A DNA stretch of 64,000 nucleotides from Simiduia sp. 21SJ11W-1 (GTDB taxonomy: Bacteria; Pseudomonadota; Gammaproteobacteria; Pseudomonadales; Cellvibrionaceae), in contig NZ_CP090959.1 of assembly GCF_024138675.1 (NCBI RefSeq), forward strand, positions 2,883,501 through 2,947,500, written 5' to 3'. The position numbers and the translations under genes are program-made. The notes beneath the pieces are model-generated. The model worked only from the letters and a program-made list of their open reading frames with translations, did not search any database and had not been told where the DNA came from. This document shows, in pieces, positions 2,680 to 20,741 of this stretch; positions within the stretch are counted from its first letter, which is position 1; the number at the start of each line of letters is the position of its first letter.

Positions 2680-3875
2680 TGCGATTGACCACCCGACTAG
2701 CCGCGCTGCTTGCGCTCAGCGGCCTTGCTACTGGCGCTTTGGCGAGCGAGTTTCAGCTAAGTGAGCAGTGCCCGCCGAGTTTTGAGCGCACCACCGACAA
2801 CAGCTGCCGACTGCACAGCCTGTACGACCAGTACAACTCGCTCTACGGCCGCGGTGTGGGTGGGCTGAAAACCGCCCTGCCGAGCCGACGCGACGGTTTC
2901 AGCCCCCAGCAAATAGACCTCGGCCGCTTTTTATTTTTCGACCCCTTGCTGTCGGCCGACAACAGCCTGTCATGCGCGAGCTGCCACCACCCGGATTTGG
3001 GCTTCGCCGATGGCCGCGCAACAGCCTTGGGTGTGGGCGGTGCCAAGGGCCACCGTGGCGCACCCAGCCTCTGGAATATGGCATTTCTAACGCGCTTTTT
3101 CTGGGATGCCCGGGCATCCAGCCTTGAAGCCCAAATGCAGGGCCCACTGTATGCCCCCGAAGAAATGGGCACTAATCCCGCACAATTGTTACAAAAGCTG
3201 AATGCCAATGACGCCTACCGGGCCATGTTTGAACAGGCTTTTCCAAACGCCGATCAATACATCACACTGGATCAAATTTACACCGCCATTGCCGCATTCG
3301 AAACGTCGCTGGTGTCGTTAAACAGCCCCTATGACCGCTACGCCCACGGCCACCACCAAGCCCTGAGCGAACCCGAAATTGAAGGGCTCAATATTTTTCG
3401 CTCTTTTGTGGCGCGCTGTGCCGAGTGCCATACCCCGCCACTGTTTACCAACCAGCAAATTGCCGTTATCGGCATTGCCGATGGCGAGGGCAACCTGCCC
3501 GATGAAGGTGCAGGCGCAGTCTTTAACAACCCCAGCTGGCGTGGCGGTTTTAAAGTGCCGAGCTTGCGCAACATCGCGCGCACTGCGCCCTATATGCACA
3601 ACGGCATGTTCGATTCGCTCAAAGATGCCGCGCGCTTTTACACCCTTGGGCGTGGCCACGCGCTGAACGATAAAGAAAAAAGCAACACCGTACTGCACTG
3701 GCACATCTGGGAGCCCAAGCTCACAGATGCCGAGTTGGACCGGCTAGTGGACTTCATGAACACCCTGACCGATGAACAATTTACCCCCGCAATACCCAAC
3801 AAACTGCCCTCTGGCCTGAAGCCTGTGGGCGCACTTCCACCGGCGCTTTCGTCGCCTGTGGCACGCAACAATTAA
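2676..3875 (+). CDS. Diheme cytochrome-c peroxidase / MauG-family protein
   Basis: A 399-residue secreted protein: signal peptide (MMRLTTRLAALLALSGLATGALA), then two heme sites, CASCHHPDLGF and CAECHTPPLFTN, with the family motifs GRFLFFDPLLSADNS, RGAPSLWN, FWDARA and PSLRNIARTAPYMHNG. CCP/MauG proteins either reduce peroxide using cytochrome electrons or oxidise protein side chains via a bis-Fe(IV) state; the sequence alone does not separate these. It starts inside the stop of the c4 cytochrome (ATGATG at 2676), with no Shine-Dalgarno, so it is probably translationally coupled. The beta-helix cytochrome follows after 16 nt. A role in modifying that protein is a guess. Confidence 0.88.
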   Translation: MMRLTTRLAALLALSGLATGALASEFQLSEQCPPSFERTTDNSCRLHSLYDQYNSLYGRGVGGLKTALPSRRDGFSPQQIDLGRFLFFDPLLSADNSLSCASCHHPDLGFADGRATALGVGGAKGHRGAPSLWNMAFLTRFFWDARASSLEAQMQGPLYAPEEMGTNPAQLLQKLNANDAYRAMFEQAFPNADQYITLDQIYTAIAAFETSLVSLNSPYDRYAHGHHQALSEPEIEGLNIFRSFVARCAECHTPPLFTNQQIAVIGIADGEGNLPDEGAGAVFNNPSWRGGFKVPSLRNIARTAPYMHNGMFDSLKDAARFYTLGRGHALNDKEKSNTVLHWHIWEPKLTDAELDRLVDFMNTLTDEQFTPAIPNKLPSGLKPVGALPPALSSPVARNN

Positions 3876-12105: not shown

Positions 12106-12160
12106 CCTCAAAATCACGGGATTCTGTCTATACTGCTTTAAACCCAAGGGAAAGTAGTTG

Positions 12161-13063
12161 ATGGCCAGAATATTCATCGTTGATGACGTAGAAGATAACA
12201 TCAAGTTGCTCTGGTATAACCTGGAGGACGACGGCCACGAGGTCGCTTCCGCCAACAGCGGCCAGGCATGCATAGATCAAGCACCGGCCTTCAAGCCAGA
12301 TGTAATCTTGCTCGACATGATGATGCCTGGCATGAGCGGCATTGAAACCCTCAAGGTGCTGAAAACCTTGCCGGAGGTTGAGAATGTGCCGGTTATTATG
12401 GTGTCTGCCGACGACAGTGACGACAGTATCATCGACGCCCTCGACATAGGCGCGCACGACTTCATTTCCAAACCCTTCATCTACCCGGTGCTGGAAGCCC
12501 GCGTGCGCTCGGCGGTGAGGCTCAAGCAAAGCCAGGAAGAACTGGGCGCCGCCAACGAGCGGCTGGCCATTCTCGCCTCAACAGATTCCCTGACCGGTTG
12601 CTTTAATCGACGCCACTTCTTTGAGATGAGCCAGCTGGAGTTCGCCAAGGCCACCCGCCACGGACGGCCTTTGTCGGTAGTGATGCTCGATGCCGATAAA
12701 TTCAAAGCCATTAACGACACCTACGGCCACGCCATGGGCGATGAGGCACTGAAGGCCATTGCCGACACCTGCCGAAGCTGCCTGCGGGAATCAGACATAC
12801 TGGCGCGCCTGGGGGGTGAAGAGTTTGCCTTATGCTGCGCTGAAACCAACCGTGATGGCGCCGCCCAACTGGCCGAACGCATCCGGCAAGCCATTGAGAA
12901 GACCACCGTCGAGCTTGACGGGCAGGCCATCAACTTTACCCTGAGCCTGGGTGTTACCGAACTGGGTGAAGGGGATATCAGCTTCGATCAGTTGATAAAC
13001 CGCGCCGATCAGCTGCTATATCAGGCTAAGTCTAATAATCGAAATTGCGTGGTGGCAGGCTGA
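12161..13063 (+). CDS. Response regulator with GGDEF output (diguanylate cyclase)
   Basis: 300 residues. Receiver domain 1-120: acidic pocket VDDVED, phospho-acceptor Asp in VILLDMMMPGM, then VSAD and the KP lysine in FISKPF. A short helical linker follows (RLKQSQEELGAANERLA) and then a GGDEF domain: TDSLTGCFNRRHF, DADKFKAINDTYGH, and the active site ARLGGEEFAL. An inhibitory I-site RxxD (RESD) lies five residues before GGEEF, so product feedback by c-di-GMP is likely. This is the WspR/PleD-like arrangement; the partner histidine kinase is not in the window. The Rsm-like RNA genes lie immediately downstream. Confidence 0.93.
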   Translation: MARIFIVDDVEDNIKLLWYNLEDDGHEVASANSGQACIDQAPAFKPDVILLDMMMPGMSGIETLKVLKTLPEVENVPVIMVSADDSDDSIIDALDIGAHDFISKPFIYPVLEARVRSAVRLKQSQEELGAANERLAILASTDSLTGCFNRRHFFEMSQLEFAKATRHGRPLSVVMLDADKFKAINDTYGHAMGDEALKAIADTCRSCLRESDILARLGGEEFALCCAETNRDGAAQLAERIRQAIEKTTVELDGQAINFTLSLGVTELGEGDISFDQLINRADQLLYQAKSNNRNCVVAG

Positions 13064-13088
13064 GCCAAGCAGCCGCCAGCCTCACCCT

Positions 13089-13106
13089 TGTAAGCCATGG
13101 CTTACA
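13089..13106 (+). promoter_or_regulatory. GacA-type upstream activating sequence, RNA gene A
   Basis: TGTAAGCCATGGCTTACA matches the GacA/UvrY consensus TGTAAG-N6-CTTACA at all 12 defined positions; the palindrome extends to 20 bp (13088-13107). Its centre is 56 bp from the centre of the -10 CAGAAT (13151-13156). Confidence 0.8.
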
Positions 13107-13162
13107 AAAGCTTCAGCCATACGCCACTATCGCCTACACCCTGCCTTGGGCAGAATACACAA

Positions 13163-13378
13163 CATACAAGGAAGTCGACACGGAAGTGATTCAGGCCATT
13201 GATGGTCAAGGGAGGCGCCCTTTGGAAAACAGGGCCATAACAAATACGGTCAGGGATACGGCATCAAGGATAGGCAGAAGGATTCTGCAAGATGATGCAA
13301 GGACAGCGATTAAGGATTAATCGATAAGACCGACACTTAGGGAAAGATATTCAAAGGCCAGCACTGCTGGTCTTTTTC
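13163..13378 (+). ncRNA. Putative Csr/Rsm-type protein-sequestering RNA, copy A
   Basis: About 216 nt. The start is inferred from the -10 CAGAAT; the end is an intrinsic terminator (AGGCCAGCA / TGCTGGTCT, 13355-13373, with T-run). It has 10 GGA motifs, most as AGGA or GGGA, beginning with ACAAGGAAG at the 5' end and ending with CTTAGGGAAA just before the terminator. Repeated GGA is the binding signal for CsrA/RsmA. The perfect GacA-type box upstream makes this the best-supported of the three. No plausible protein is encoded. Confidence 0.75.
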
Positions 13379-13415
13379 ATTTCCGGGCTTTACTAATCCC
13401 GTGAAGCCACAGCCG

Positions 13416-13433
13416 TGTCAGCCAAAGCTGACA
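13416..13433 (+). promoter_or_regulatory. GacA-type upstream activating sequence, RNA gene B
   Basis: TGTCAGCCAAAGCTGACA is a perfect palindrome around N6 and matches 10 of 12 positions of TGTAAG-N6-CTTACA. Its centre is 78 bp from the -10 CATAAT (13500-13505), 22 bp (two helical turns) farther than in copies A and C. Confidence 0.6.
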
Positions 13434-13511
13434 AGCCGCTGGCCAGAAACCTACGCCTGCTGCCGTTCCAAGCCACTGGGCGCACAGCAGGTGGTTTTGC
13501 ATAATACCCAT

Positions 13512-13661
13512 CAACAAGGAAGTACACAGGATGTAACGCGGCCACTGAAGGCAAAGGGAAGTACCTCCCGGATGGAGGTCATAGATAGGTCAAGGAATAG
13601 GGACGAAGACCAGCACTTAGGGAAAACGCTTTAAGAGGGCCAGCTTTGCTGGCCCTCTTTC
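13512..13661 (+). ncRNA. Putative Csr/Rsm-type RNA, copy B
   Basis: About 150 nt with 8 GGA motifs (ACAAGGAAG near the start, ACAGGATG, a CGGATGGAGG pair, CAAGGAATAGGGA, CTTAGGGAAA before the end). Terminator AGAGGGCCAGC / GCTGGCCCTCT (13634-13658) then Ts. The promoter and 5' part align with copy C (GCATAATACCCATCAACAAGG versus GCAAAATACCCATCAACAAGG). Confidence 0.72.
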
Positions 13662-13694
13662 ATTTGCGCGTTAAAAAAAGCTGCGGCTTACGGA

Positions 13695-13712
13695 TGTAGG
13701 TTTTGGCTGACA
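13695..13712 (+). promoter_or_regulatory. GacA-type upstream activating sequence, RNA gene C
   Basis: TGTAGGTTTTGGCTGACA: 10 of 12 matches to TGTAAG-N6-CTTACA, though the two halves do not mirror each other perfectly. The centre is 56 bp from the -10 CAAAAT (13757-13762), the same as in copy A. Confidence 0.55.
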
Positions 13713-13768
13713 CACTCTGGCGCTTCCCGCCACTAGGCGCACACGGGGCAATTTTGCAAAATACCCAT

Positions 13769-13933
13769 CAACAAGGACGTACCACAAGGAAGTATCGAGG
13801 CCAGCGAAGGCCAAGGGAAGCGCCCTCAGGACGACAGGGCCAAATAAACAAGGTCAAGGAAAAAGGATCACGGACGGTTCAAGACCACAACTTAGGGAAA
13901 CACATTCAAAAGCCGGCATTGCCGGCTTTTTTT
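13769..13933 (+). ncRNA. Putative Csr/Rsm-type RNA, copy C
   Basis: About 165 nt with 8 GGA motifs (ACAAGGACG, ACAAGGAAG, CAAGGGAAG, CAGGACG, CAAGGAAAAAGGATC, CGGACG, CTTAGGGAAA). It ends in the strongest terminator of the three: AAAAGCCGGC-ATT-GCCGGCTTTT (13908-13930) plus extra Ts. Similar to copy B over the promoter, 5' end and pre-terminator region, diverged between. Confidence 0.72.
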
Positions 13934-14006
13934 CTATCCGTCACCTGCGACTTCTCAGTCAGCCACAATCTCGTATACTGCCTGAAAATAACAACGAGTA
14001 GCGCCC

Positions 14007-14669
14007 ATGGCATTTCGCATTCCCTCTACCAACACATTTTTAATTCAGGCCTTTGTGCTTTTGGCCTGCGTCTATTTGGTGAGTTTATGGTTGTCTTTGC
14101 CTGTGTACCTTGCAGCGGTGCTAAAGGTGGCCCCCATACTGTGCTTGCTGACGCTGGCTCTGAAGGCGCCGCAGCGGGCCAACTTTCTAGTGGGCGCCCT
14201 GGTATTTTCCGCCCTGGGCGATGTGTTACTCGCACTACCTATTGAACACAGTTTTGTATTGGGCCTGGGTGCCTTTTTAATTGCACAGTCGATTTATGCC
14301 GCAGGCTTTTTTGTGCGTCGCGCGCAACCGATTAGCGCACAGCATAAGGGACGTTTATTTTTTGTGTTGGTAATAAGCCTGGCCTTGGCCACTATCATTT
14401 TGCCGCGCACCGGCGCCTTGGCAATGCCCGTCACGGTTTACCTGTTGGCCATTGCTGCCATGGCGGCAACCGCAGCCACTGTCCCCAAGGCGGGGGCCGC
14501 GTTATTTTGCGGGGCCTTATTGTTTGTACTTTCAGATGCCTGCATAGCAATCAACAAGTTTGTGTACCCTTTCAACGGCAGCGACATTGCCATCATGAGC
14601 ACCTACTACGGCGCACAGGCACTTATTTGCTATGGGGTGCTACGCCACCAGCGTCAGGTGCAGCGCTAA
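14007..14669 (+). CDS. YhhN-family membrane protein (lysoplasmalogenase-like)
   Basis: 220 residues with about eight hydrophobic helices. It has the family pattern of conserved acidic residues in membrane helices (FSALGDVLLALP and FVLSDACIAINKF) and the end YYGAQALICYGVLRH. Family members (TMEM86, YhhN) hydrolyse the vinyl-ether bond of lysoplasmalogens in animals; the bacterial substrate is uncertain. Its last 47 bp overlap the end of the convergent DUF3833 gene. Confidence 0.85.
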   Translation: MAFRIPSTNTFLIQAFVLLACVYLVSLWLSLPVYLAAVLKVAPILCLLTLALKAPQRANFLVGALVFSALGDVLLALPIEHSFVLGLGAFLIAQSIYAAGFFVRRAQPISAQHKGRLFFVLVISLALATIILPRTGALAMPVTVYLLAIAAMAATAATVPKAGAALFCGALLFVLSDACIAINKFVYPFNGSDIAIMSTYYGAQALICYGVLRHQRQVQR

Positions 14670-20332: not shown

Positions 20333-20602
20333 TTAGCGACGCAGGCCGAGTTTCTGAATCAGGGCAGTGTAACGCTCAGCGTTTTTACCCTTCAGGTAAT
20401 CCAGCAACTTACGACGCTGGTTTACCATGCGGATCAGACCACGACGTGAGTGGTGATCTTTCTTGTTCTCGGAGAAGTGACCCTGCAACTTGTTGATGTT
20501 GTAAGTCAACAAAGCTACCTGAACCTCTGGAGAACCAGTATCGCCTTCAGCTTGCTGAAAGTCTTTTACGATGTCCGCTTTTTCTTGTGCACTAAGTGCC
20601 AT
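20333..20602 (-). CDS. rpsO: 30S ribosomal protein S15
   Basis: 89 residues, exactly the family length, with the classic sequence [49 protein letters not shown] and [12 protein letters not shown]. It binds 16S rRNA helix 22 early in 30S assembly. An upstream in-frame start (20611) is rejected because the conserved protein begins at MALS. It lies between truB and pnp in the standard order. Confidence 0.98.
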
Positions 20603-20741
20603 ATCATTCACCTTTACGTATGACTACGTTTAAATATGCAAGTTACTTAACCACAGGGTGGTTATAGCAACCGGTTATAAAAGGCCTGTCCGTGCATATT
20701 TACAGACAGGTCTGCGCCCCACCGGGGCTATTCGGTAGCCG

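Follow-up and report, generated by a model that had tools for sequence, protein, structure and literature searches.

A conserved tandem array of three probable Gac/Rsm-type RNA genes in Simiduia

Introduction

Between a diguanylate cyclase gene and a YhhN-family gene of Simiduia sp. 21SJ11W-1 lies a short stretch of DNA in which the same set of regulatory motifs appears three times in a row. Are these three separate RNA genes of the Csr/Rsm class, the domains of one long transcript, or short coding regions, and when did the copies arise? All positions below are those of the window, the whole stretch of 64,000 nucleotides that was analysed.

In E. coli and Pseudomonas, it is established that GacA/UvrY controls RNAs of this class and that they sequester CsrA (PMC4682653, PMC7911923). 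Neighbouring copies of such RNAs are also known: PMC7911923 describes tandem rsmX-1 and rsmX-2 in Pseudomonas brassicacearum, with further pairs of rsmX genes in P. fluorescens F113, P. stutzeri and P. syringae. The members of these pairs are 101-179 bp apart, 107-113 nt long and 75-87% identical (PMC7911923, Table 1), and rsmX-2 has both a GacA upstream sequence and GacA-dependent transcription. In Pseudoalteromonas fuliginea, three Csr RNAs, Pf1, Pf2 and Pf3, contain 25, 21 and 9 GGA motifs, and their deletions have graded effects (PMC11882849). Among the matches listed in the open-access literature, we found neither Rsm RNAs of Simiduia nor a triple Rsm array.

Layout of the array

The interval 13089-13934 is made of three units on the plus strand, each with a GacA/UvrY box, a -10-like hexamer, an RNA start, a set of GGA motifs, the common sequence CTTAGGGAAA (at 13336, 13616 and 13891) and a terminator hairpin. 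In unit 1, the box TGTAAGCCATGGCTTACA (13089-13106) matches TGTAAG-N6-CTTACA at 12 of 12 positions, with 0 mismatches, and its centre lies 68 bp before the ACAAGG of the RNA start; it is followed by the hexamer CAGAAT (13151-13156) and by an RNA of about 211 nt (13166-13378) with 10 GGA motifs, its terminator hairpin included. The box of unit 2, TGTCAGCCAAAGCTGACA (13416-13433), matches at 10 of 12 positions (2 mismatches), with its centre 89 bp before ACAAGG, ahead of the hexamer CATAAT (13500-13505) and an RNA of about 147 nt (13514-13662) with 8 GGA motifs and a terminator-like hairpin. Unit 3 has the box TGTAGGTTTTGGCTGACA (13695-13712; 10 of 12, 2 mismatches, centre at 67 bp), the hexamer CAAAAT (13757-13762) and an RNA of about 162 nt (13771-13934), again with 8 GGA motifs and with its terminator hairpin. 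The 5' end of all three RNAs reads ACAAGGA[A/C]G, within the start sequence ACAAGGAAG at 13166 and 13514, and ACAAGGACG at 13771; the start sites given by the original prediction, 13163, 13512 and 13769, are plausible as putative positions.

A terminator scan reports the hairpins of unit 1 (13353-13375) and unit 3 (13908-13930). The hairpin of unit 2 is absent from its output; it is a perfect 12-bp inverted repeat (13633-13659) followed by CATTT. The original prediction had thus described the array correctly: its palindromes (12/12, 10/12 and 10/12), -10 hexamers and shared CTTAGGGAAA are all found where it placed them, its 8-10 GGA motifs per unit are counted as 10, 8 and 8, and the terminator that it gave to each unit is recovered by the scan in units 1 and 3 and as an inverted repeat in unit 2.

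Upstream of the array stands the REC-GGDEF diguanylate cyclase gene (12158-13063, plus strand, Pfam), and downstream the YhhN-family gene (14007-14669, plus strand, Pfam), its neighbour throughout the genus. In the leader of the REC-GGDEF gene (12143-12162), the sequence CCCAAGGGAAAG places an ANGGA just 5' of the start codon and close to the ribosome site; repression of this gene by CsrA is therefore conceivable.

GGA motifs and common fold

In the 64 kb, both strands included, the 150-nt segments with at least 8 GGA all fall into three runs, one for each unit. Compared with 1000 dinucleotide shuffles, which keep GG and GA, the plain GGA counts are not clearly above chance, being reached by 21%, 8% and 4% of the shuffles; the counts of the longer motif ANGGA, 9, 6 and 7 in units 1, 2 and 3, are reached by 0%, 0.5% and 0%. 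This context, typical of CsrA sites, surrounds 22 of the 26 GGA sites of the array. The mean probability that a GGA is unpaired is 0.71, 0.68 and 0.58, against 0.50, 0.50 and 0.45 in shuffles, values that 1.5%, 7% and 10% of 200 shuffles reach: the excess is clear only in unit 1.

The units share a fold composed of a GGCC hairpin, a GCCCT/AGGGC hairpin, a GGTC/GACC helix and the terminator. In most copies the loop of the GCCCT/AGGGC hairpin exposes a GGA, and the GGTC/GACC helix encloses further ones. Over 11 units of the genus, 94.7% of the helix cells are paired, against 20-52% in slid controls, and 100% in helix 4, the terminator; since the structure was drawn from the same sequences, these figures are support and not proof. 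In the same 11 units, and with controls that ignore phylogeny, 17 cells have changes on both sides (shuffle mean 5.9, with 0 of 500 shuffles as high). Counted by pairs, two-sided changes affect 6 of 23, a value that 34 of 500 shuffles reach; the 9 further pair types are below the shuffle mean of 12.0, and no change is seen in the four core pairs of helix 3. Folding z-scores against shuffles are -3.5, -1.9 and -1.4 for units 1, 2 and 3.

Class membership and partners in the genome

No Rfam family exceeds its gathering cut-off at the array. At a permissive threshold, RsmY (RF00195) has the best E-value of any family at each of the three units, with 30.7 bits over 13266-13375 (E 2e-5), 20.3 bits over 13555-13657 (E 0.015) and 27.6 bits over 13814-13930 (E 1.4e-4) in a search of 961 bases; none of these scores reaches the cut-off of 57 bits, and in unit 2 an unrelated family scores more bits than RsmY, at a worse E-value. 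Among eight loci of relatives, RsmY is found at two places with E up to 0.05, one unit each in L037 and L038. For PrrB_RsmZ (RF00166, cut-off 44 bits), the genome has three weak matches, the best at 19 bits and none at the array; the 300 bases inspected around the best one contain no ANGGA on either strand. Of the Rfam models proposed with the original prediction, RsmY matches every unit, but below its cut-off, and RsmZ has no match at the locus. Because the scores stay under Rfam's own cut-offs, the units cannot be classified as RsmY or as RsmZ. Elsewhere in the window, the Rfam ribosomal S15 leader scores 45.6 bits, above its cut-off of 39.5, at 20546-20655 on the minus strand.

Membership in the functional class Csr/Rsm is another matter. 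The units combine a non-coding RNA rich in GGA and ANGGA, an upstream GacA/UvrY palindrome and a terminator, and the genome (3.96 Mb in one contig) has CsrA, GacA and a GacS homologue. There is a single CsrA, beside a gene that reads as an aspartokinase, and one clear GacA/UvrY homologue, beside a uvrC-like open frame; the latter scores 272.6 bits, narrowly under the NCBIfam equivalog cut-off of 280, and the next response regulator scores 126. A GacS/BarA-like kinase covers positions 5-891 of the 920-position BarA model with 733 bits, under the equivalog cut-off of 890, the next match having 517. From these features, the RNAs are probably switched by GacA and sequester CsrA, while standing outside the current Rfam families.

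Distribution in the genus and the family

In order to find relatives, we use a covariance model, R1, of the -10 hexamer, the start and the first hairpin, built on 18 training rows, 11 of them from the genus. In the genome it has three strong matches, of 78.8, 74.1 and 84.3 bits for units 1, 2 and 3, the next being at 17 bits; these units and the other copies of the genus are among its training rows. Neither R1 nor RF00166 finds a dispersed fourth Rsm RNA in the genome, although a divergent one could escape them.

DNA similarity recovers the locus in the three other genomes of the genus that were compared: G127, which is S. aestuariiviva CECT 8571 (NZ_JACHXZ010000001.1), G128 and G129. The YhhN-family gene is present at each of them, and with R1 the array is seen at the same locus in 4 of 4 Simiduia genomes, in 3, 3, 3 and 2 copies. 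In G129 only units 1 and 2 are present, and R1 has no match in the roughly 450 bp that separate them; in that interval (L039, reverse complement 3375-3775) we note two copies of GGATGGCCGCCCCCTACAA.

At the scale of the family, R1 has a match with E of 0.01 or better in 63 of 144 genomes and 18 of 32 genera. One or two matches are found in 50 of the 63 positive genomes; where a genome has more than one, the matches are in some cases modules of a single RNA. The REC-GGDEF gene lies within about 1.5 kb at 13 of 34 family loci checked (11 genomes) and not at the other 21. Judged by the match coordinates in the family, this genus is the only one where three successive copies, each with a promoter of its own, were seen, the promoters having been read at the loci whose sequence was retrieved. 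Another genus (G006) has a tandem pair of Rsm-type RNAs with their own GacA boxes (L194, G006:C1:2858800-2861000, minus strand), and in G063 and G004 two copies are separated by a long open frame.

In a sample of 390 genomes of the order, R1 matches 14, six of them outside the family with E from 7e-5 to 0.0099; these six are not counted as relatives because five lack the start motif, a motif that also failed on some true family copies. Of the 80 listed loci, R1 was applied to four, with 51-83% identity, and it has no match at L109 of Teredinibacter sp. ISS155; the plasmid search gave no match.

In eight genomes of other genera (G123, G132, G040, G130, G134, G133, G135 and G136), the upstream neighbour of the RNA is again this REC-GGDEF gene. 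In the first five the gene is 55-57% identical and lies downstream of nrdB, and the RNA, which begins with CATCAACAAGGA, looks like a single longer one: it measures 300 nt in G130 and 341 nt in G134, and our script did not find its end in G123, G132 and G040. Within one apparent RNA, R1 matches four times in G040 (one match being weak) and three times in G123, and no separate promoters for the repeated modules are seen in these two. On the minus strand of the G040 locus (L043, 3636-4101), the four matches of the 5' module stand in a row, and GGA is dense over about 350 nt. The total of GGA motifs is not constant across loci, being 26 here and 14, 16, 12 and 10 in four other RNAs, those of nine tried whose end the script could find.

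This repetition of modules invites the conjecture that the Simiduia units are also domains of one long RNA, transcribed by read-through from the REC-GGDEF gene or across the array. The stop codon of REC-GGDEF is only about 25 bp from box 1, and the terminator scan reports nothing in between. However, each unit has its own box, -10 hexamer and terminator hairpin, and these are conserved in the genus. We thus regard read-through as improbable, and retain the reading as three separately transcribed genes.

Promoters and GacA/UvrY boxes

Taken alone, the palindromes are unremarkable: there are four such sites in 64 kb where 1.5 are expected, and 7 of 100 shuffles reach four. The pattern TGTNAG-N6-CTNACA is found at five places of the genome, two of them in the array, and the reversed control pattern at one. 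In 39 units of the family, fewer than all the places that R1 matches, the best box is at -66 to -68 from ACAAGG in 28 cases, five of which are ties; in 5 others, all of them copies of the Simiduia array, it is at -88 to -90. In 500 mononucleotide shuffles, the mean is 2.0 for either range and the maxima are 6 and 7 respectively, figures that do not translate into a probability because the 39 units are related. The two ranges are two helical turns apart.

The five distant boxes are those of unit 2 in all four genomes of the genus and of unit 3 in S. aestuariiviva. This last box is orthologous to the -67 box of the present genome, the alignment of the two species showing a 22-bp indel, and unit 2 of S. 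aestuariiviva has an additional 9/12 site at -67. Some copies are without a good box, such as unit 3 of G128, with 7/12 at -67 and its best site, 8/12, at -123; in several family units the best box has only 6-7 matches of 12.

The A.AAT of the -10 hexamer is invariant in the 18-row alignment. A scan for sigma-70 promoters finds none at the three units, as expected of promoters that depend on an activator and have no TTGACA box. A conserved [C/G]ACT element is visible about 40 bp upstream of the RNAs, at 13124-13129, 13473-13478 and 13730-13735, counted in 31 of the 39 family units and too far from the -10 hexamer for an ordinary -35. As a side observation, the minus strand of locus L004 has, from 1501, the sequence TGTAAGCCAAAGCTTACA, followed by an ATG some 120 bp downstream, a possible direct target of GacA and not an sRNA; at L003 a similar box precedes an open frame.

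Conservation and age of the triplication

Comparison with S. aestuariiviva, the nearest relative, tells how the region evolves. The boxes are 100%, 83% and 94% identical and the RNAs 85%, 92% and 85%, against 57-74% elsewhere in the promoters and 32-54% for the spacers. Of the 26 GGA sites 24 are conserved, compared with 297 of 433 (69%) for all trinucleotides (Fisher p 0.0075 against the others). A conserved protein across the region, which the original prediction had named as evidence against itself, is not found. Open frames of 91, 77 and 180 amino acids do exist, and could be read as short proteins; but they start with TTG or GTG, all 14 indels between the two species have lengths that are not multiples of 3 and so shift the frame, and identity is flat over codon positions, as in non-coding DNA. 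Coding is the least credible reading of the locus, and we give it practically no weight.

The local duplication suggested by the original prediction holds insofar as the units are tandem copies, but it was not recent. The bodies of the RNAs are 85-89% identical for the same unit in the two species, against 56-70% between units of the present genome, and a recent duplication was rejected on these values in favour of an older one. In the tree of the bodies, units 1, 2 and 3 of the two species pair by position, with supports of 0.979, 0.965 and 0.946; the second unit of G129 joins unit 2 (0.996) and unit 3 of G128 joins unit 3 (0.726). Unit 2 of G128 is unplaced (0.419), and for the unit 1 bodies of G128 and G129 the tree gives no firm grouping; in the promoter tree all four copies of unit 1 come together (0.997). 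Since the units pair by position and the array is found across the genus, the triplication predates the divergence of the two closest species; on this comparison it is probably older than the crown of the genus. Within a genome, the promoters of units 2 and 3 look alike near the start by eye; gene conversion between them is not claimed, as the trees, built on about 100 bp, do not decide the matter.

Copies this old might no longer be equivalent: all driven by GacA, they could be sponges of unequal strength or with additional inputs, giving separate outputs instead of a simple dosage. The pairing by position argues for this possibility, as do the lengths and box spacings (-67 or -89), which vary by unit. 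On the other side, the start, hairpins, GGA sites and terminator are kept in all copies, no second regulator site is identified, and the loosely placed units of G128 and G129 weaken the pairing. We consider it a serious contender, a little short of an even chance.

Discussion

Taken jointly, sequence, structure, comparison and genome content bear out the original reading of a CsrA sponge of the Gac/Rsm type, and we hold it highly probable that the array consists of three independent sRNA genes of the Csr/Rsm class, activated by GacA, self-terminated, and acting to free the targets of CsrA. Transcription, control by GacA and binding of CsrA are carried over here from the known Csr/Rsm systems. 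In the proposed mechanism, phosphorylated GacA would bind the palindromic box 67-89 bp upstream and activate a promoter that has no good -35 box; each RNA, of about 211, 147 or 162 nt, would stop at its own terminator and display 8-10 GGA sites between small conserved hairpins; the RNAs would then bind CsrA, and its mRNA targets would be freed.

The kind of RNA is well known and tandem pairs are published: the unusual arrangement is the conserved row of three. Like the rsmX pairs of Pseudomonas, these are adjacent duplicated Rsm RNA genes; unlike the pairs described in PMC7911923, they are three, of about 147-211 nt, with bodies 56-70% identical. In all three units the alignment to the RsmY family runs from inside the RNA through the terminator, but at 20-31 bits, compared with the gathering score of 57. 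UvrY, the activator of CsrB and CsrC, binds an 18-nt palindrome with this consensus (PMC4682653); at E. coli csrB, however, the centre of the site is at -183/-182 and optimal activation requires IHF, whereas the boxes here are 67 or 89 bp before ACAAGG. P. fuliginea also has three Csr RNAs per genome, but the part of PMC11882849 that locates Pf1-Pf3 places them in intergenic regions and does not describe an array.

What could be gained by having three genes? Three genes probably let one signal release more CsrA-binding capacity, and release it in grades, which would make them the dosage-tunable sponge that was first suggested; promoter strength may also vary among the copies with the spacing of their boxes. 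It is tempting to go further, and to see a genus-wide array whose boxes, at two phases of about 67 and 89 bp, draw three graded GacA outputs from one phosphorelay, while some sister genera repeat modules within one RNA for more sites; this extended picture is speculative, and we think it rather doubtful as a whole.

That the box of unit 3 is displaced by 22 bp from one species to another offers a natural test of the helical phasing of GacA. The same locus also allows two ways of raising the capacity of a sponge to be compared, more genes or more modules per RNA. With it, the Cellvibrionaceae, here a family of marine bacteria, gain a defined candidate for the Gac/Rsm output, one that current Rfam cut-offs miss.
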